Assembly: GCA_015660915.1 (NCBI GenBank) | Contig: JACTTZ010000004.1 | Span: 124,001 to 188,000, forward strand | DNA length: 64,000 nucleotides | From: Methanomicrobia archaeon | GTDB lineage: Archaea > Halobacteriota > Bog-38 > Methanoflorentales > Methanoflorentaceae | Direction: 5' to 3' | Shown here: piece by piece, positions 13,356-23,097 of the stretch | How the letters are laid out: each line of letters starts with the position of its first letter | Numbering within the stretch: position 1 is the first letter of the stretch | The notes under the pieces: model-generated | Seen by the model: only the letters and a program-made list of their open reading frames with translations | Told to the model about the DNA's origin: nothing | Databases searched by the model: none | Program-made: the position numbers and the translations under genes

Positions 13356-13403
13356 ATTGCTTGGGGCTTCCGGGTGCGTGTCGCTTCAGATTCCGAATAA
13401 TCA

Positions 13404-13934
13404 ACGACTACGTTTGAAATAGAGTTCGCCATTTTCACCGCCATTGTTTTTGTTTTCGCGCTTGTCTCTCGTCGCGTTGAGAGACTCAACGTGACGGCGC
13501 CTATAGCATTCATCGCTGCGGGCATGTTGTTCGGCGCCTCACACCTCATCAGCGCGTCGATCAACAATGAGGTCCTGCTGCTTGTCGGAAGCATCGCCCT
13601 TGCGCTGGTCCTGTTCACCGATGCGTCGCGTATCAACATTTCGTTGTTGCGGGTAAACGCCAACTTGCCTGCCCGGCTGCTAATTATCGGTCTACCGCTG
13701 ACGATCGCGGTTGGCGCGGTCATTGCAGCCCTCCTGTTCACGAACCTCACGATTTGGCAAGCAGCAATTATAGGAGCAGTGCTCGCCCCGACGACGCGGG
13801 TCTGGGGCAAGCGATCGTAACCAGCGAACGAGTGCCTGTCCGCATTCGAGAGGCGCTCAACGTCGAAAGCGGCCTGAAAGAGGGAGGGGCGGTGCCCTTT
13901 CTTTTGGTGTTCCTCGCTCTCGCGGCGATTCAGG
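13404..13934 (+). pseudogene. truncated, frameshifted Na+/H+ antiporter (CPA1-type) remnant
   Basis: Reading from 13404, the frame gives TFEIEFAIFTAIVFVFAL, then FIAAGMLFGA, then a series of membrane segments to GAVLAP. It then shifts by one base near 13795 into DAGLGQAIVTSERVPV and ALNVESGLKEGGAVPFLLV. These are TM motifs of the cation:proton antiporter family. The expected start codon is ACG, a likely decayed ATG. The remaining helices of the roughly 400-residue family are missing, and the frame runs on into unrelated sequence. The gene is dead on three counts. Confidence 0.82.
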
Positions 13935-14266
13935 CGATTCGGCCGCTCTTAGACGACAGAAGTGACGAAGATCCCCTGTTCGAATACAACTCACTTGTAA
14001 TGTGGGTGAAGCGGGAGAAGATCCCACTGACGCGTATAGCCTCTCATTTTGCTCTAGGAGATTTGAGGAAGTTTGCCGAGCAATATGGCGATATTATTCA
14101 GTGGGATCAGTCAAATCGAGCGTATATCATGACTCATAGTGCAAGCGGTATCAGTTGGAAGCACTACAAGCATCCGCTGCCTGAGAACGTGTTTGATGCG
14201 TATATGGAGTATTGGGCGGAAGTCAGATTCGAAATAACGCGGAGTTTTCGTTCTAACAAAAGCTAA
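13935..14266 (+). pseudogene. C-terminal fragment of an unrecognised protein fused to the antiporter remnant
   Basis: About 110 codons in frame with the end of the antiporter remnant (FEYNSLVMWVKREKIPL ... MEYWAEVRFEITRSF). They do not belong to that family. The composition is that of a soluble protein with conserved aromatic residues. A second, more damaged copy of its last 150 bases lies at about 17526-17690, so this is a fragment of a repeated or duplicated gene. The parent family is not recognised. Confidence 0.5.
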
Positions 14267-14381
14267 TTATATCCCCATCGTGCAATGGTATGGCATCGCA
14301 TGCTTTCGTTGTTAGGACTTCTGCGAACTAGAAAGAAGCTTCGACAACGCCTAATTGCCCTAATTTGATAACGAGGCATAA

Positions 14382-15488
14382 ATGGCTAAAGACTCCGAAC
14401 CTGAGAAATGGGGGTATGAAAGACACAAGGAAGTTAAGCACGAGCTTCTTGAGAAATACTTGTCAGTTTGGATTACTATTCTTGGGACAAGATTTAGAAA
14501 GATTTGCTATTTTGACTGCTTTGCCGGAAGGGGAGAATATGAAGACGGCACTCTGGGGTCTCCGATTAAGGCGATTGAAATAGCTGATAGAAAAACCAAA
14601 GATTACGAAAAAATATTGCTAGTATTCATTGAAAAGAATCTTGATAATTTTAACAATCTCGTTAACGTCTTGGAGAAAAAAAAGCAAGAAATTGCGAATC
14701 TCGACAAAATCGTCATACTTCCAATGAATACCGATTTCAATAGCGCTGTAGGGCAAGCATTTGGAAGTTTGGGTAAAGGACAAGATATAGCGCCGTCCTT
14801 TTTCTTTGTTGACCCTTTTGGGTATACTGGCATTCCGTTCGACGCGATAAGGAGAATATTGTCTTATCCAAGGACTGAAGTCTTTTTCACTTACATGGTT
14901 GATTCAATAAGGCGTTTCATAACTTACCCGGCCATTTCTGAAACTTTAACAGATCTCTTTGGCACTGACAAATGGGAAGAAATAATTCAAAAACCGGACA
15001 GAGAGGCTGCTTTGGTCGAGCTATATAGAAAGCAACTACACGAAGATGCGGGCGCGAAGTATAGTTTACATTTTAAAATGAGTGAAAGCCGGAGATTAAG
15101 GACATTATACTATCTAATACACGCGACTAATAATCTAAAAGGCCACTATGTCATGAAAGATATCATGAATAAGGCAAGTCCGCACGGCTCTTTTGCATTT
15201 CTCGGGCCAAAAGACTCTGCAGTATGGGGTCAAACTAGATTGGTTGATGATGACATAAACGATTTAAAGCGACAATTATTAGAGAGGTTCGAAGGCAAGA
15301 CCTTGACTTTTGACCAAATCTTGGAAAAAATATGCATTCCGTGGTACCTAGAGCCTCCCCGCACTGAAGGACAGTACAGAAAAGCGCTGCAAGAACTTGA
15401 AAGCGAAAAAAAATGTAATGTACTACGTATTAGCTCAAAAAGGTCGGGGCTGAAACAAAAAGATATGATTACTTTCCCTGCCGCGTAA
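14382..15488 (+). CDS. tcmP: three-Cys-motif partner protein TcmP
   Basis: A 368-residue protein that I recognise as TcmP. It begins PEKWGYERHKEVKHELLEKY and has a nucleotide-binding-like loop DCFAGRGEYEDG (residues 45-56) and VDPFGYTG (143-150), which resemble motifs I and IV of Rossmann methyltransferases. The biochemical activity of the family is unproven. TcmP genes are named for their habit of sitting beside a radical-SAM-like protein with a three-Cys motif; such a gene lies 88 bases away, convergent. The start has gagg before the ATG. The base composition is clearly more A/T-rich than the flanks, which suggests transfer. Confidence 0.85.
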   Translation: MAKDSEPEKWGYERHKEVKHELLEKYLSVWITILGTRFRKICYFDCFAGRGEYEDGTLGSPIKAIEIADRKTKDYEKILLVFIEKNLDNFNNLVNVLEKKKQEIANLDKIVILPMNTDFNSAVGQAFGSLGKGQDIAPSFFFVDPFGYTGIPFDAIRRILSYPRTEVFFTYMVDSIRRFITYPAISETLTDLFGTDKWEEIIQKPDREAALVELYRKQLHEDAGAKYSLHFKMSESRRLRTLYYLIHATNNLKGHYVMKDIMNKASPHGSFAFLGPKDSAVWGQTRLVDDDINDLKRQLLERFEGKTLTFDQILEKICIPWYLEPPRTEGQYRKALQELESEKKCNVLRISSKRSGLKQKDMITFPAA

Positions 15489-15576
15489 CTTGTCAACCCG
15501 CCATTGACCGTGCAGAAGCAGGAACCGTCAGCAGGTCAGAAAACAAATAATCAAGCGATCCCTATTGACAGCAGCG

Positions 15577-16407
15577 CTAGTAACTGGGCAAGGGGAAGCG
15601 AGAATCCGGTGTAGATACGTTATTGGTGGTCTTATTCTCTATTCGAGTGCCCTTTTTTATGTGAGGCTCAATCTTCTTTTTCCGGCAGAAGTCTATTACG
15701 GTATTAGCGCAGTCTTCGTAAAAATTGGCAATGCCGGCAAAACTGTTAACTTTGAAATTATAATTCATTTTTCCGAAGATTATTCTATCGACGAACGACA
15801 ATGCGTCGAGTATCTCAGATACGTCTTGCTTAACTAGATTCGGTGGCGGATATGGTTCAATGCTAGCCCACGTTTTTAGCCCCGCGTCATGGAGATATTT
15901 CAAAGAAGCTATCCTTTCCTTCAGCGGGGCGCTGAAGCACTCAAATCTTTGCTTGAAATCTTCGCTAAGCGAAACTAGGGTTATACCATAGGTATTTTGA
16001 TTTCCGTATTCTTTGGTCTCTGCGAGAACCTTTGGGTATATCCCCTTGGTGAGGACGGTCGTTTTGATCGCATTGTCATTTAGTTTTTTGATTATTCTTA
16101 AGGTCAAATCTTCGACCTCAGGGTGGCAGTACATGAAAGGGTCAGTCGTGAAACATAAGTGCACAAAATCAATTTGATTTCTGTATTTTGGTATTTCTTG
16201 ATCGAGTATTTCTATGGCATTTGAAACAAGTTTAGGCTCCAACCAGTCATTATAATCTTTGATTCTGCCAAATCTCTTCGCCATCAACATCGCATAACAA
16301 GGGTACCTACAACCGTGCGCACATCCTAGGACGTGATTAATACAAAAGTTCGCGTATTCTACCTTGCTTCTATAAAGCAAGCTTTTCTTCTTGACCGTTT
16401 TCGTCAT
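15577..16407 (-). CDS. radical SAM-like protein with three-Cys motif (TcmP partner)
   Basis: A 276-residue TIM-barrel radical SAM-like protein. The cluster motif is GCAHGCRYPCYA at residues 28-39, with Cys29, Cys33 and Cys37. The spacing is C-x3-C-x3-C, one residue longer than the classical C-x3-C-x2-C. Another Cys at 22 lies close by. The rest (TTVLTKGIYP, WASIEPYPPP, IIFGKMNYN) follows the spore-photoproduct-lyase-like or DUF5131-like subgroup. It probably acts with TcmP on a shared substrate, which is not known. A TATA element tttatatattt about 25-35 bases before the ATG implies a leaderless message. Confidence 0.82.
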   Translation of the reverse strand: MTKTVKKKSLLYRSKVEYANFCINHVLGCAHGCRYPCYAMLMAKRFGRIKDYNDWLEPKLVSNAIEILDQEIPKYRNQIDFVHLCFTTDPFMYCHPEVEDLTLRIIKKLNDNAIKTTVLTKGIYPKVLAETKEYGNQNTYGITLVSLSEDFKQRFECFSAPLKERIASLKYLHDAGLKTWASIEPYPPPNLVKQDVSEILDALSFVDRIIFGKMNYNFKVNSFAGIANFYEDCANTVIDFCRKKKIEPHIKKGTRIENKTTNNVSTPDSRFPLPSY

Positions 16408-16542
16408 TGCCTGATTCTTTTCTACGACAAATATATAAATATCATAATGTTAAAAAGCGCCGCGTAAGTGTTTATTCTTTACTATTTGTTGATGACTCAT
16501 TGCAGCTAAAGTTTCCCAAAGCGCAAAAAGAGCGAAAAAAGA

Positions 16543-16569
16543 ACGCTATTTTTAGCGTCGTGCTTTTTC
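16543..16569 (+). terminator. small hairpin followed by T-run
   Basis: A perfect 6-bp stem ACGCTA-TTTT-TAGCGT is followed by cgtgcttttt. It lies in the 294-base gap between divergent genes, where no transcript is expected to end, so its role is unclear. Confidence 0.3.
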
Positions 16570-16701
16570 ATAGACCATTATTTGCTCTAAGCTAGCATCC
16601 GATCATCATAAATCGTGATCTACACGATCTGTGCGGCCCCTCAGACCGCTTTCAAAGCTATCAGTCAAATGAAACTCTTAAGTAAGCGAGCCTGCTAGAT
16701 T

Positions 16702-17231
16702 ATGAAGGTTGACATGGAAGACATATCGGATGCAGAGCCAACCGAAACACAAAAAAAGAACTAAACCTCCTGATTAAAAAGGCGCCGCTTGAACACAAGG
16801 TGAATCAATACAGGTTGTGTGTAGAGACCGTGGACAAGATTTATGATAGGAGAATTGAAACGAATAAATTCTATATCAGCTTACTCACTGCTCTGTTCGC
16901 GTTGCTTTCCTTAGTAACGGGGGGAGGATTTGTTTTTGGAAACGTCAAGAACTTCGTAATTCCCGCAGTGGCGTTTGTTGGGATTTTGTTGTGCATTATT
17001 TGGGTCTTGATGATTCGTTCTTACAAACTAATGAATGTAGCTAAGTATGAAGTTATACATCAAATGGAAAACGATATGGGCCTATTTCATTGCTATGAAG
17101 AAGAGTGGGCAAATATCCAAAGGCGGAAACGATGGCAACGTTACATCCCGCAAGCGTGGATAGAATATTGCATCCCTGCTATCTTTGCTCTTGCCTATCT
17201 GAGTTTATTGTATATCATGCTTAGCCCCTAA
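16702..17231 (+). pseudogene. small membrane protein (RipA-like), frame broken at an A-run
   Basis: An ATG at 16702 opens MKVDMEDISDAEPTETQKKN and stops at 16762. In the -1 frame the sequence continues KELNLLIKKAPLEHKVNQYR and then ETVDKIYDRRIETNKFYISL, followed by two transmembrane helices (residues 30-75), a soluble YEEEWANIQRRKRW segment and a last helix. The aligned E/DKIYDRR..N pattern is that of the about 150-residue membrane proteins annotated as RipA-like; this is recognition by memory. The break lies in seven As reading CAA AAA AAG, an in-phase A-AAA-AAG slippery heptamer. So either one A is missing (decay or sequencing error) or the ribosome shifts -1. Codons from 16800 on are intact. 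Confidence 0.6.
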
Positions 17232-17439
17232 TAGATGCACAGAACATATAGCGTGAATTGTTCTTTGTGGTCCACATCAGCACTCAAATACTAGGTGTCT
17301 TCACAAAAGAGTATTTTTTCATCCCGGCCCATAATCCACAGCTAGGAAAATCAGCGAGGGGGCAATTAACAACCTCAACAATTCGTCTCATTTTAACATA
17401 AGTCTTTTGACACGACCAGCGTCTTGCGATCTGACATTT

Positions 17440-17690
17440 CAATCAATATGTGAGACTAAAGCACTCGGTGTTCTCTAAGGTTGGGTAGCAAGGTAATTGA
17501 ACCGCTCACAGACCTTCGCCTGAATAGGCAATATTCTACGCCAGTCAAACTGAGCATATAAGTGACGCACAGTTTGAGCGGTATCGATCATAAGCACTAC
17601 GAGCATCCCTGCCTGAGTATGTTTACGAGGTATACGTAAAGTAGTGGCAGGATGTAAGCTTCATTATCTGAGTTGACTATGCTACTTGAA
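17440..17690 (+). pseudogene. degenerate second copy of the 13935-14266 gene fragment
   Basis: Blocks such as agcggtatcg, aagcactacgagcatcc and ctgcctgag match, in order and at similar spacing, the sequence at 14138-14190 (agcggtatca, aagcactacaagcatcc, ctgcctgag), with several insertions and deletions. No reading frame survives. The remainder of the gap 17232-17815 shows no gene. Confidence 0.6.
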
Positions 17691-17815
17691 CAAAAGTCCC
17701 ATATGCAGAGCGGTTCATGTAGTCTATATTTGAATCTGCAATAGAAGCTAAATCAAAACCTTAATGATACGCCTTTTTGCGTTTAGAGGCAAGACGGAAC
17801 GATTAAGAGGAAATT

Positions 17816-19162
17816 ATGGCATTGCACTCCAAGCAAACAAGCGAGATAAGGGATCCGATTTATGGTTTCATAAAAATAGATGAGTGGGAAAGAACGATAA
17901 TCGACGCGCCAGAGTTCCAACGGCTTAGAAGGATTCAACAGTTGGCCCTTACGAGCATGGCTTTTCCCGGCGCTTTGCATACTCGTTTTGAGCATTCGCT
18001 TGGAGCCATGCATATGGCCACTGTCATGTATGATGCGATAATTGAAAATCCAAAAAACAAGAAGCTGTTAAAAGACCGATTTGGATATAAAAAGCCCCAA
18101 CTCGCGCACAATCGACGACTAGTTAGATTAGCCGCATTACTCCACGACGTAGGTCACGGTCCATTTTCCCACGTTGCAGAACGAGTTATGCCTTTCAATG
18201 ATAAGGAACGAAAGCCCTTCAAACACGAGGACTATACTTTCGCGATACTAAGACAATCTCCTTTAAGAGATGTGATAGAGAAAAATGACGTTGGAATAGA
18301 CGTGGAGCAAATCGTAGAATTATTTGAAGCAACGGAAGAAAATATGCTCTGGAAGGAGATAATCTCAAGCCAACTTGACGCAGACAGGGGAGACTATCTT
18401 TTGAGAGATTCTCATCATATTGGAGTGCAATACGGTGTCTACGACTACCCCAGATTACTAAATACGCTAGCGCTGGGCTACGATCCTGAGACTGGTGATA
18501 TCGAAACTGGCGAACTCAAACTAGGGATATTTGAAGATGGGCTGAGGGTAGCAGAATCGTTCATCATTGCACGCTACTTAATACTCACCCAAGTCGCTTT
18601 GCATAAAACTAGAAGAGCATTTGATTATCATTTGGAACAAGCGATGAAAGAAATTCTACCCAGCAGCAAGTTGCCAAAGCCTAGTAGAATTGAACGTTAT
18701 TTGGGCTACGATGATTATGTTGTATTGAATAAGATAAGACGTAAAAAAGACAAGTCTGAAGATTGCAAAGCTATCTTAGATAGACGGCAAATTAGGCCCG
18801 TATATGAAAAGGAGATAATTTCGAAGAAAACTGAACCTCAAGAGGGTCAACGTGTCGAGGAAAGCTTTAGTGAGGAGGAGGAAAGAATTCGTGAAGAGAA
18901 GAAAGAGGTAGAAGAGGTAAGCGAACTATTGAAACGAAAACGCATCTGGGTTCATTTAGATGACGTTGAAAAGTCATGGTATGACATAGATGCTACTGAG
19001 ATACTTGTAACAAGCAATCACGGAGAAGTAGGACTACTGTCAGATCGTTCCAACATTATGAAAAACATGGGACCATTTAAAGCATGGCGTTTATATGTAA
19101 AACCAGAGGCTAAAAAGAAGGCTGATTATGCAATTCGGCGATGGAGAGAAACCCATGTTTAA
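17816..19162 (+). CDS. HD-domain phosphohydrolase (dNTPase/SAMHD1-like, YwfO type)
   Basis: A 448-residue protein with a complete HD metal site: His60 (TRFEHSLG), His110-Asp111 (LLHDVGHGPFSH) and Asp188/Asp190 in SQLDADRGDYLLRD. These are the hallmarks of deoxynucleotide triphosphohydrolases and SAMHD1 relatives. Residues about 310-380 form a highly charged helical insert (EEEERIREEKKEVEEVSE). The start ATG has agagga upstream. It overlaps the next gene by eight bases, so the two are translated together. HD plus YwgA-like pairs also occur in Bacillus (ywfO-ywgA). A nucleotide-depleting defence or housekeeping role is possible. Confidence 0.87.
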   Translation: MALHSKQTSEIRDPIYGFIKIDEWERTIIDAPEFQRLRRIQQLALTSMAFPGALHTRFEHSLGAMHMATVMYDAIIENPKNKKLLKDRFGYKKPQLAHNRRLVRLAALLHDVGHGPFSHVAERVMPFNDKERKPFKHEDYTFAILRQSPLRDVIEKNDVGIDVEQIVELFEATEENMLWKEIISSQLDADRGDYLLRDSHHIGVQYGVYDYPRLLNTLALGYDPETGDIETGELKLGIFEDGLRVAESFIIARYLILTQVALHKTRRAFDYHLEQAMKEILPSSKLPKPSRIERYLGYDDYVVLNKIRRKKDKSEDCKAILDRRQIRPVYEKEIISKKTEPQEGQRVEESFSEEEERIREEKKEVEEVSELLKRKRIWVHLDDVEKSWYDIDATEILVTSNHGEVGLLSDRSNIMKNMGPFKAWRLYVKPEAKKKADYAIRRWRETHV

Positions 19163-19682
19163 GTATCCCGCTATGATAGGATATTTAGTCAAAGCACTGA
19201 GGGACAAACATCCTGAAGAAGAACAAATTGGGAAAACCAAAATACAAAAAATACTTTTTTTGCTAACCCGAAAGCATATCGTGGATTTTGATTACTCTAT
19301 GCACTACTACGGCCCTTACTCACCTGAAGTTTCGAACGAGCTACTTGTTGCCGAAACTGCAGGGATCATACAAAGTAAGTGGAAAGATGATAAGGGCTTT
19401 TTCATCGAAAAAGGGCCTAACGAAAAGAAATTCGAAGAAGAAATAGAAAAAGATGAGATCAGTGCCATTGATGAAATCGTCGAAGTTTTTGGTAAATATA
19501 ACGCAAAGAAATTTACAATCCTAGCTACTTTGCTTTTCTTGAACGACAAAAAAGGTTTTTTTAGTAAAGAAGATTTAGTGGAAGAAGTACACAGAATTAA
19601 GAAATATCCTGTGCAAGATATACGTGAAGTTCTAGAGGATTCAGAAAAGGCTGGATACTTAGTTTATCAAAAACTCAAATAA
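19155..19682 (+). CDS. YwgA / Panacea-like helical protein
   Basis: A 175-residue protein with an N-terminal helical domain GKTKIQKILFLLTRK followed by HYYGPYSPEVSNEL. The K-x-x-K-x-L-[FY] plus GP-[YF]-s-p-E pattern is that of YwgA and Panacea-type (DUF4065-like) proteins, which include antitoxins that block a neighbouring toxin. The C-terminal third looks like a winged helix (FSKEDLVEEVHRIKKY). The ATG at 19155 lies inside the end of the HD gene with ggagag at the right distance. A partner or antidote role for the HD protein is inferred from coupling and family. Confidence 0.72.
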   Translation: MFKYPAMIGYLVKALRDKHPEEEQIGKTKIQKILFLLTRKHIVDFDYSMHYYGPYSPEVSNELLVAETAGIIQSKWKDDKGFFIEKGPNEKKFEEEIEKDEISAIDEIVEVFGKYNAKKFTILATLLFLNDKKGFFSKEDLVEEVHRIKKYPVQDIREVLEDSEKAGYLVYQKLK

Positions 19683-19865
19683 TGTGAACTTAGTTTCTTC
19701 CACAAAAGTCAGCTTGTTACAGCGCCTTTTTCTGTCAAAAACCTCGCACGCTGTGATCCAAGCCGGTTGTAAGATTCCTCGGAAGACTTACTGAGAGACT
19801 TTTTTCAATTTTATCCCGAGCAAAAATCGCCGGTTAACTACTTTTCTAGATTAACTATTTGACCC

Positions 19866-20130: not shown

Positions 20131-22089
20131 TTATCGTCCGAACTTACGAAGGGCTGTCGCAGCGCTCTTGCGAACATCACTGTCCGCATCGTTGAGCGCC
20201 CTTTCTAAGGGCTCAACGGCTCTGTTATCACCGATCGTGGCGAGGGCATCCGCAGCGTTCACGCGAACACGCTGAATGTCCGAGTCGTTCAGCGCCTTTA
20301 TTAACGGCTCCACAGCCGGCTCGCCGATCCTGCCGAGGGCATCCGCAGCGCGCCTGCACACATTCAAATCCGCGTCGTTGAGCGCCCGTATCAACGTCCG
20401 CACCGCCCTGAAACCGCCAATCTTACCAAGGACATCCGCCGCGTTACTGCGAACATCACTGTCCGCGTCGTTGAGCGCTCTTATTAACGGCGCAACGGCC
20501 GGTTCGCCGATTGGATCACACTTATCCCATTGTCCTTTCGCTATCCAGTAGGCGGCCGCTGCTTCATCCCTGCCCGGGGTCCACCCCAACGTATCGAGGG
20601 ATTTCGCAGCGCTCTTGCGCACACGCGAATCCGCGTCGTTGAGCGCCTTTTCTAAGGGCTCAGCGGCTCTGCTATCACCGATCGTGCCGAGGGCATCCGC
20701 CGCGTTACTGCGAACATCACTGTCCGCGTCGTTGAGCGCCTTTATTAACGGCGCAACGGCCGGTTCGCCGATCCTGCTGAGGGCATCCGCAGCGCGCGCG
20801 CGCACATTCAAATCCGCGTCGTTGAGCGCCTTTATTAACGGCTTAACGGCCGGTTCGCCGATCCTGCCGAGGGCGTCCGCAGCCGCCCTGCGAACATGCT
20901 CGCGCGTGTCTCCAAGCGCCTTTATTAACGGCTTAACGGCCGGTTCGCCGATCCTGCTGAGGGCATCCGCCGCGTTACTGCGAACGTCACTGTCCGCGTC
21001 GTTGAGCACCTTTATTAACGGCGCTACTGCTCTGCTATCGCCGATCCTGCCGAGGGCTTCCGCCGCGTTACTGCGAACGTCACTGTCCGCGTCGTTGAGC
21101 GCCTTTATTAACGGCTTAACGGCCGGTTCGCCGATTGGATCGCAATTACCCCATTGTCCTTTCGCTATCCAGTAGGCGGCCGCTGCCTCATCCTTGCCCG
21201 GGCTCCACCCCAACGTATCGAGGGCTTCCGCCGCGTTACGGCGAACGTCACTGTCTGCATCGTTGAGGGCTCTTATTAACGGCGCCACTGCTCTGCTATC
21301 GCCGATCCTGCCGAGGGCTTCCGCGGCGGCAGCGCTCTCGTGCACATGCGAATCTGCGTCGTTGAGCACCCTTATTAACGGCTCCACTGCTCTGCTATCG
21401 CCGATCCTGCCGAGGGCTTCCGCGGCGGCAGCGCTCTCGCGCGGACCCCAATCCGAGTCGTTGAGCACCCTTATTAACGGCTTAACGGCCGGTTCGCCGA
21501 TCCTGCCGAGGGCTTCCGCAGCCGCCCTGCGAACATGCTCGCGCGTGTCTCCGAGCACCTTTATTAACGGCTCCACGGCCGGCTCGCCGATCCTGCTGAG
21601 GGCATCCGCCGCGTTATTGCGAACATTCAAATCCGAGTCGTTGAGCACCCTTATTAACGGCGCCACTGCTCTGCTATCGCCGATCCTGCCGAGGGCGTCC
21701 GCGGCGCCACGGCGCACATTCAAATCCGAGTCGTTGCGCGCCTTTATTAATGGCTCGACGGGAGGTTCACCTATATTGACAAAGGCTTCAGCAGCAGCCC
21801 TGCGACCATGCTCGTCCGTGTCTCCGAGCGCCTTTATTAACGGCTTGACGGCCGGCTCACCGATCGTGCCGAGGGCTTCCGCCGCGTTACGGCGAACGTC
21901 ACTGTCTGCGTCGTTGAGCGCCTTTATTAACGGCTTGACGGCCCGGGGATCGCAGATCTCGCCAAGGACGCTCGCAGCGTTTATGCGAACATCACTTTCC
22001 CTTTTATACCCCAATGCCTTGATGAGTCCTTTGACGTCCCTCTTCTCTCTCATCTTTTTAACATTTGGCGTGCCGAACTCGAAGACCAT
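20131..22089 (-). CDS. HEAT-repeat (PBS-lyase-type) protein with 19 repeats
   Basis: A 652-residue solenoid built almost entirely of about 31-residue HEAT units of the form AVKPLIKALNDADSDVRRNA followed by AEALGRIGEP. I count 19. Units 9 and 15 carry the same 25-residue insertion containing AAYWIAKGQW, six repeats apart, which suggests block duplication. Such proteins are scaffolds or belong to bilin-lyase relatives; no enzyme site is visible, and it should be cytoplasmic. The start at 22089 has ggggtg eight bases upstream. The frame could be extended 16 residues. DNA units are so alike that recombination or assembly collapse is possible. Confidence 0.88.
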   Translation of the reverse strand: MVFEFGTPNVKKMREKRDVKGLIKALGYKRESDVRINAASVLGEICDPRAVKPLIKALNDADSDVRRNAAEALGTIGEPAVKPLIKALGDTDEHGRRAAAEAFVNIGEPPVEPLIKARNDSDLNVRRGAADALGRIGDSRAVAPLIRVLNDSDLNVRNNAADALSRIGEPAVEPLIKVLGDTREHVRRAAAEALGRIGEPAVKPLIRVLNDSDWGPRESAAAAEALGRIGDSRAVEPLIRVLNDADSHVHESAAAAEALGRIGDSRAVAPLIRALNDADSDVRRNAAEALDTLGWSPGKDEAAAAYWIAKGQWGNCDPIGEPAVKPLIKALNDADSDVRSNAAEALGRIGDSRAVAPLIKVLNDADSDVRSNAADALSRIGEPAVKPLIKALGDTREHVRRAAADALGRIGEPAVKPLIKALNDADLNVRARAADALSRIGEPAVAPLIKALNDADSDVRSNAADALGTIGDSRAAEPLEKALNDADSRVRKSAAKSLDTLGWTPGRDEAAAAYWIAKGQWDKCDPIGEPAVAPLIRALNDADSDVRSNAADVLGKIGGFRAVRTLIRALNDADLNVCRRAADALGRIGEPAVEPLIKALNDSDIQRVRVNAADALATIGDNRAVEPLERALNDADSDVRKSAATALRKFGR

Positions 22090-23097
22090 CAATATCACAC
22101 CCCAAATATCCTCTCTTGATACGCGGCGATATATCAATATCGGTGATAGCTGCTATCGTCGCTGCGGTCGACTGCGTCATTAAGGTTAGCGATACGATCC
22201 CCGATTCTCAAATGTTGGCGACAGGATGCTCTTTTTTACAAGGCAGGCAGCAGGGAGACGCGAATATACCATCTGTCGCGCTTCGCAAACTGGCCAAAAA
22301 TCATAGGGTTCGGGACGAGCGCAGAACAACTATAGAGACTGTGTAACCCCTATGCAGTGACTATTTCTGGCACGACGCGCACAGCGATATGATCGTGTGT
22401 GTGCACCCGCATAGCAAAAAGGTCGGGAGGACGGAAGCATAACCGGCGTGTGCTCTGCCGTTCTCCCTTGGAATCAGGATCGAGCGTGCATTTCTGAAGC
22501 GACATCGATTCGTTTCTATATGGTGAGCGTACACTACGTCAGAACCTTTGTGCGAAAAAGGCGCTGCACTTACTATTAACGTCGTTGACAAGTTCGACTG
22601 CTTTTGGATTGCCCCAGGCCCTCATCAAAGAGGGGGATTCCGATCCGCACGAAGCGGTCTCTAAGGAACTTCTGCCGCCCCTTGCGGTCAAACGAGGCGA
22701 CGAGGAGCTACGCTGAGATGAAAAAGAAGAGTACGATGATGCCGCTAATTATGGCCGAGAAGACATAGTTCACGTACGTGGCGTGATAGATCGCGTCAAG
22801 ATGCCCTAAAAAGGCATTCACGGTATTTCATGGGTGCGCGGAGCCAGAGACCTGAACTCCGCTACAATGTGATCGCCGTTGACGAGTAGGTACCAAACCA
22901 AAGGCCATCGAAGTTAACGTTTCGACCATATTTATCCGGTCAATTGATTCCCCAAGGCTGAATCGTAAAAGCAGCGCCACGACCGAGAAAAAACATCTGC
23001 TACGGTAGCGTAAGTCGTATCTGGTGATGCGAGTCTTACTACGTTCATGAATTTATTGACTTAGGCAAATCTAACAGGCGACAACATCGCATACGCG
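22090..23097. other. 1-kb region of degraded coding fragments, no intact gene
   Basis: A minus-strand segment at about 22716-22830 reads HLDAIYHATYVNYVFSAII and then a hydrophobic helix to a stop, as the C-terminus of a membrane protein. The start and upstream part are lost. A plus-strand run near 22600-22716 (ALIKEGDSDPHEAVSKELL) looks coding but has no start. An open frame at 22361-22591 (minus) is unrecognised. The right end lies just downstream of the P-type ATPase stop. I interpret this as gene debris. Confidence 0.45.

Follow-up and report, generated by a model that had tools for sequence, protein, structure and literature searches.

The window, by which we mean the whole 64,000-nucleotide stretch of DNA analysed, carries two overlapping genes inside a region of low GC content. 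The features concerned are:

17816..19162, + strand: gene for an HD-domain protein of the SAMHD1/EF1143/2hek type (448 aa; ATG start, TAA stop at 19160-19162)
19155..19682, + strand: partner gene, encoding a protein resembling Panacea and the DarG C-terminal domain (175 aa; ATG at 19155)
19155..19162, + strand: 8-base overlap of the HD gene and the partner gene, read from the sequence
14300..19850, no strand: low-GC island containing the pair, a TcmP-like gene, a radical-SAM gene and an 8xMP membrane protein gene

Both reading frames lie where the original prediction had placed them, with the partner ATG eight bases before the end of the HD gene. The internal ribosome site claimed for the second gene is also present: when the sequence is read directly, a ribosome-binding-like GGAGAG is found just 5′ of the ATG at 19155. 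An alternative in-frame ATG at 19128 would give a partner of 184 aa and an overlap of 35 bases.

The island spans about 5.5 kb (14.3-19.85 kb) with a GC content of 0.406, between flanks of 0.544 and 0.557, and has the lowest GC content among 232 sampled 5.55-kb stretches of the window. In two genomes of the same genus, about 1 kb between syntenic blocks stands in for the window's stretch from about 13.9 to 27.9 kb, and both of these genomes carry another insert of 2-3 kb just before the replaced stretch. The HD protein was absent from all six same-genus genomes searched, which are 61-88% complete. The pair had been described as bordering an accessory island. The island itself is borne out by its GC content and by its absence from the two syntenic relatives, but the pair lies inside it and not at its border. 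No clear direct repeat flanks the two ends of the island; the strongest one (46 nt, 76%) is internal. No tRNA gene was found within the window. At the left edge of the island, positions 13401-14266 hold a fragment 90-92% identical to same-genus genomes, and positions 17563-17608, just before the HD gene, are the 46-nt, 76% repeat of this fragment's continuation. The fragment and the repeat are perhaps the remains of repeated insertion at the site.

Several other genes lie in or next to the island. At 14382-16407 the TcmP gene, which matches TIGR04474 (1e-57) and the PADLOC candidate PDC-M30A (3.5e-37), is convergent to the radical-SAM gene, which matches PDC-M41B and PDC-M30B weakly; these two genes are possibly a second candidate defence pair. 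Just upstream of the HD gene and its partner, 16800-17231 encodes a small 8xMP-family membrane protein (PF24838, 1.4e-32), for which PADLOC gave no match. The island is directly followed by a minus-strand gene (20131-22137, GC about 0.60) for a 668-aa protein made up almost entirely of HEAT repeats.

The HD protein matches the Pfam models HD (3.4e-9; 37.4 bits against a cut-off of 22) and HD_assoc_2 (5.5e-9). Its best solved relatives by sequence are 2hek (2.9e-49), EF1143 (4.3e-31), BT4208 and SAMHD1, an antiviral enzyme of humans. An AlphaFold model built from 29 sequences (pLDDT 93.1) resembles 2hek with Z 40.3, EF1143 in complex with dGTP/dATP with Z 36.1 and SAMHD1 with Z about 33, and these matches at Z about 33-40 span 359-405 residues. 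The original prediction had credited the protein with a full dNTPase-type metal site, and this is correct: H60, H110-D111 and D190 are all in place, together with the catalytic residues R57, H114, H119, E122 and H137. Each metal and catalytic residue is kept in 40 to 42 of 42 paired homologues. From motif order and SAMHD1 numbering, we take H60/H110/D111/D190 to correspond to SAMHD1 H167/H206/D207/D311, R57/H114/H119/H137 to R164/H210/H215/H233, and D30/Q35/R38 to D137/Q142/R145, a correspondence that was checked against motif positions in the alignments. In SAMHD1 the first set are metal ligands, the second are catalytic and the third make up allosteric site 1, according to PMC8177086. The window protein thus has the residues of this guanine nucleotide site, which across the 42 paired rows are D in 19 or N in 11, Q in 35 and R in 36; the D is less constant in these rows, since it is kept in 89 of 109 unpaired ones.

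The protein scores 38.4 bits with the Dgt-type dGTPase model TIGR01353, below its cut-off of 152.35, and the PADLOC dGTPase model gives a weak match in 28 of 29 aligned HD proteins. We conclude that the HD protein is very probably a dNTPase, predicted to be allosterically regulated and of the SAMHD1/EF1143 type, with dNTPs as its likely substrates.

The partner had been called Panacea-like, and two kinds of evidence agree with this. It matches the Pfam model SocA_Panacea (PF13274; 3.4e-8, 34.8 bits against a cut-off of 25.7), and its AlphaFold model (pLDDT 94.3, from 25 sequences) folds like the C-terminal domain of DarG. In a Foldseek search of the PDB only two matches reached E<=0.001, both of them chains of the M. 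tuberculosis DarTG complex 7yk3; with VIA-align the DarG C-terminal domain aligned over 165 residues with Z 16.9, the next entry scoring 8.8. All 25 aligned partner proteins match the PADLOC DarG model at E<=1e-3, and the window partner scores 32.7 bits with the NCBIfam DarG model (cut-off 250). The Pfam Panacea model recognises just three of the 25 at E<=1e-3, so surveys of Panacea domains could miss proteins of this type. Among viral models, Foldseek found nothing similar at E<=0.001.

Residues 53-56 of the partner, GPYS, are a variant of the Panacea GPV motif. In the model GPY(S) falls in a predicted strand (53-55) that follows a helix (27-39), and PMC8832971 places GPV in strand beta-2, beside the central helix. 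Across 42 partners the motif has G in 41 and P in all 42, and its third residue is Y in 36, F in 5 and H in 1; according to the same source, a single change of the valine does not abolish Panacea function. Panacea antitoxins are described there as binding and neutralising many toxins, and the DarG C-terminal domain is described in PMC11481870 as occluding the DarT active site.

Residues 1-104 of the partner also align with many winged-helix regulators (PadR, MarR) with Z 7-8, and it might be proposed that the partner is a transcription regulator of the HD gene that makes no contact with the enzyme. Scores of 7-8 lie in the range that the tool calls common, however, the match to DarG scores twice that and extends over 165 residues, and the partner, with its overlapping start, follows the enzyme in translation; we consider this explanation very unlikely. 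Residues 1-128 of the model resemble LmuC of the Lamassu complex LmuABC (9ny5_C) with Z 7.7, again a score that may reflect no more than a common arrangement, and LmuC models were matched by two of the 25 partners. DNA mimicry of the kind attributed to DarG is unsupported, because the median charge of the partners is only -3, which is not strongly negative.

Relatives were collected with an HD alignment as query, which yielded 80 loci on genome contigs and 30 on viral contigs. The HD tree has 156 rows, each a distinct HD protein 330 aa or longer; it includes same-phylum and plasmid loci and excludes shorter HD ORFs, duplicates and copies of the window locus. A partner gene lies downstream in 36 of the 156 rows and upstream in 6; 5 are cut by a contig end and 109 have none, so that HD relatives of the superfamily are common and mostly unpaired. 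(A tally of 33 of 157 comes from a profile-based look for partner-like neighbours and includes three copies of the window locus.) The picture is different close to the window protein. The nearest 24 of the 155 other rows on the tree comprise 23 paired rows and one, L058, whose contig stops 25 bases past the HD gene. Fourteen of the 42 paired rows came from searches with the partner and are therefore not independent evidence of pairing; among rows found through the HD protein alone, 12 paired rows and one cut row precede the first unpaired one, and the partner is thus present in all 12 of the closest HD-search relatives that keep their downstream flank.

Pairing is clustered on the tree, requiring 13 changes where shuffled labels require 43. 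A slower tree of 64 rows places the window protein inside a set of 14 rows with 99% support, all 14 of them paired; this tree omits by name 11 long or odd unpaired loci and 3 paired loci, and 24 of the remaining unpaired rows were drawn at random. As the pairing label needs several gains or losses on the tree, a single origin of pairing is not shown.

The association also holds when the partner is the starting point. A partner profile found some Panacea-like match in 170 of 392 same-phylum genomes, and at 82 bits or more it listed 26 places. In 24 of these, the window included, the surroundings were read: an HD gene is adjacent in 21, counting as adjacent anything within about 250 bases and including some broken or partial HD genes, and the contig ends in the other three (L192, L207, L208). 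At the next-lower-scoring Panacea loci (64-72 bits), no HD gene was adjacent in the six that were read. The two genes overlap in 31 of 42 pairs, by exactly four bases in 18, and the enzyme comes first in 36. Divergence of the HD proteins follows that of the partners (Mantel r 0.80), a value reached in none of 2000 permutations (maximum 0.19), and restricting the comparison to HD pairs below 45% identity gives r 0.53.

The adjacency of HD gene and partner is not due to chance, and the two form a discrete, near-obligate two-gene module. That this module is real and conserved we regard as almost certain. Conserved pairing, tight overlap and co-divergence support a functional linkage between the two proteins.

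The paired proteins also differ from their unpaired relatives in sequence. Between a 24-row paired clade and the unpaired HD proteins, R266 occurs in 96% against 0%, D270 in 92% against 6%, Q259 in 100% against 22% and Y254 in 100% against 31%. These four residues lie in helices 240-261 and 264-280 of the HD model, and T46 and F18 likewise separate the two groups. The distribution suggests that the region of the two helices is the likeliest surface for binding of the partner.

The pairing is also open to a second interpretation, in which the partner is a required activator, an assembly subunit or a sensor of the dNTPase and does not inhibit it. The clade's HD protein was never seen without the partner where flanks were present, nor the partner without an HD gene, and obligate pairing would suit a two-subunit enzyme no less than a toxin with its antitoxin; the clustering of R266, D270, Q259 and Y254 in one helical region could mark a subunit interface. 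Against this, the nearest characterised proteins that share the partner's fold, DarG-C, PanA and SocA, all neutralise a partner, and EF1143 and SAMHD1 are working homotetramers that have no such subunit (PMC8177086). We consider an activating or structural role unlikely, and that the partner binds and restrains the HD protein probable. The HD frame is in pieces beside an intact partner at five loci (L091, L122, L195, L202, L205), and the reverse case, a broken partner beside an intact HD gene, was not seen in the window's clade, where numbers are small. This hints at the polarity of a toxin, with the qualification that the cases are few and mostly in draft assemblies.

Paired loci occur in Methanothrix, Nitrososphaeria, Desulfurococcales, several Bacillota, Coatesbacteria, Planctomycetota, Spirochaetota, Armatimonadota and Chloroflexota, and in at least ten families of the window's own archaeal phylum. 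Nine distinct rows from viral contigs have the pair. One of these pairs is next to a large terminase gene (L132), two are next to genes for tail-sheath TIM-barrel proteins (L134, L135), and an integrase gene is near two more (L136, L150). At L133, L156 and L157 the scanned neighbours had no match, and these contigs are only putatively viral; PHROGs matched 2 of 10 chosen neighbours. Scans for close relatives of either single protein found nothing in viral contigs, and the HD scan also found nothing in genome contigs; the alignment query did find relatives in both sets. By tblastn the partner had no match in plasmids or phages, and the L133 partner none in phages. The HD protein had matches in 13 phage records, covering at most 71% of the query, and in 42 plasmid records. 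Among nine plasmid regions that were opened, only that of Priestia megaterium has an adjoining partner-like gene, identified by profile; no partner was found beside the HD gene in two Klebsiella records or in those of S. aureus, Vibrio, Bacteroides, Desulfosarcina, Roseibium and Acetoanaerobium. A separate HD family of about 510 aa recurs on viral contigs without a partner (L137, L139-L141, L143-L147, L152), and similar genes are found in Klebsiella prophage and plasmid records.

Since several copies adjoin phage structural or integration genes, the pair might have originated in phage nucleotide metabolism, removing a canonical dNTP on behalf of a phage whose DNA is altered, or else breaking down host pools, and have been captured by cells. 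This is highly improbable in our estimation: many copies lie among ordinary genes in cellular genomes, and the antitoxin fold of the partner would be left unexplained.

Neighbouring genes were compared for paired and unpaired HD loci. By Pfam, the 88 proteins neighbouring 15 paired loci are mostly ordinary. PADLOC matches among them come from 119 families, each matching at most two proteins, and a control of 88 neighbours of unpaired HD genes (taken from 135 available proteins) gave 29 families with up to four members each, counts that are neither convertible to numbers of defence genes nor comparable as such. Among the matches at paired loci are a single type I restriction set and several candidate systems, few in number. 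A defence-island reading of the neighbours is unsupported, because no PADLOC family matches more than two of the 88, and the neighbourhood survey put forward in the original prediction thus gave no clear enrichment in defence genes.

The P. megaterium copy (L037, Bacillales) sits among genes of chromosomal type (hemQ, pta, gerQ), and one lineage may therefore use the pair for housekeeping. In B. subtilis, ywfO and ywgA are neighbouring genes. A general housekeeping function would make the pair a metabolic enzyme with its regulatory subunit, controlling dNTP pools and spread horizontally. The P. megaterium copy, with its HD and partner-like genes between chromosomal-type genes, is compatible with this, as is the superfamily at large, which is widespread and mostly unpaired. 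The window's clade, however, is sporadic, as the 392 same-phylum genomes yielded 26 places scoring at least 82 bits; its HD protein was not found in the six same-genus genomes (61-88% complete); the window pair is in a low-GC island and the clade occurs on phage-like contigs as well. We regard housekeeping control of dNTP pools as decidedly unlikely.

Characterised systems share parts of this arrangement. EF1143, SAMHD1 and Aquifex 2hek have the same HD and HD_assoc_2 fold, H..HD..D metal site and D/Q/R of allosteric site 1, but they have no known need for a protein partner, and the window's clade has its own R266 and D270. The Panacea (DUF4065) systems PanAT are likewise two-gene overlapping loci with a small Panacea-domain protein and a GP motif (PMC8832971). 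They have GPV where 36 of 42 window-type partners have GPY, and the window-type effector is instead a dNTPase of more than 400 aa. According to PMC8832971 the antitoxin usually comes first and Panacea antitoxins swap partners, whereas window-type pairs have the enzyme first in 36 of 42 cases and are faithful; the terms 'HD domain', 'hydrolase' and 'dNTP' are absent from the main text of that paper. In DarTG, DarT is blocked by the C-terminal domain of DarG, whose fold the window partner shares, but the window module lacks both macrodomain and DarT, and its 175-aa partner consists of the C-terminal-type fold only.

A parallel in logic comes from Clover, in which the dGTPase effector CloA is restrained by the second gene, CloB, and inactivation of the second gene leads to toxicity (PMC12265719). 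The window pair would likewise combine a dNTPase effector with a second gene that restrains it, and this precedent of a dGTPase coupled to an inhibitory partner enzyme supports the restraint reading. CloB is a nucleotidyltransferase, whereas the window partner has a Panacea fold and would itself be the inhibitor; no nucleotidyltransferase domain was found in the partner or in the other scanned island genes. The stand-alone anti-phage dGTPases in PADLOC belong to the same HD dNTPase superfamily, but the window protein is of another subfamily and has a partner. Of the PADLOC candidate PDC-M19, PDC-M19A matched 15 of 25 partners weakly and no PDC-M19 model matched any of 29 HD proteins at 1e-5. 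PADLOC 2023 has no model naming the pair of HD protein and partner, and in open-access text, which leaves supplements outside, no paper was found that joins an HD dNTPase to a Panacea-like partner. The pair is apparently unnamed, with component folds that are known and a logic that resembles known systems.

We favour the following model, for which we see roughly an even chance. The first gene would encode a deoxynucleoside triphosphate triphosphohydrolase of the SAMHD1/EF1143 type, and the second a dedicated partner of Panacea/DarG C-terminal fold that would bind the enzyme and keep it inactive. The gene overlap may couple translation, so that both proteins would be made together. If the partner were displaced, titrated away or lost, as could happen when a virus infects the cell or when the element disappears, the enzyme would be released and would hydrolyse dNTPs, stopping DNA replication of the virus, the cell or both. 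The dNTP substrate, direct binding, inhibition as opposed to activation, the trigger and the benefit to host or element are all points that we infer. Several observations speak against the model: the mostly ordinary neighbours, the enzyme-first gene order, the Y in place of V in the motif, the modest charge of the partners and the many unpaired HD relatives.

The original prediction of a toxin-antitoxin or defence pair fares unevenly. It is favoured by the dNTPase-type HD protein, the Panacea-type partner, the functional linkage, the mobile or accessory context and the toxin-neutralising activity of related folds; the ordinary neighbours and the P. megaterium copy count against a simple defence reading. 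The pair is most likely a toxin-antitoxin-like or anti-phage switch in which the partner would restrain a dNTPase. That it defends against viruses is a serious possibility, though one falling somewhat short of an even chance. More tentatively still, a SAMHD1-type dNTPase may be the toxic effector of a toxin-antitoxin-like immune module of archaea, bacteria and phages, locked directly by a faithful Panacea/DarG-C-fold partner, perhaps through an allosteric or tetramer surface, and released on viral infection. If this is true, dNTP depletion, as in SAMHD1, bacterial dGTPases and Clover, would be joined to an antitoxin fold in wide use, as in Panacea and DarG, within a single small module that archaea, bacteria and phage-like contigs all carry, and this module would offer a direct test of how a dedicated protein keeps a SAMHD1-type enzyme safe.
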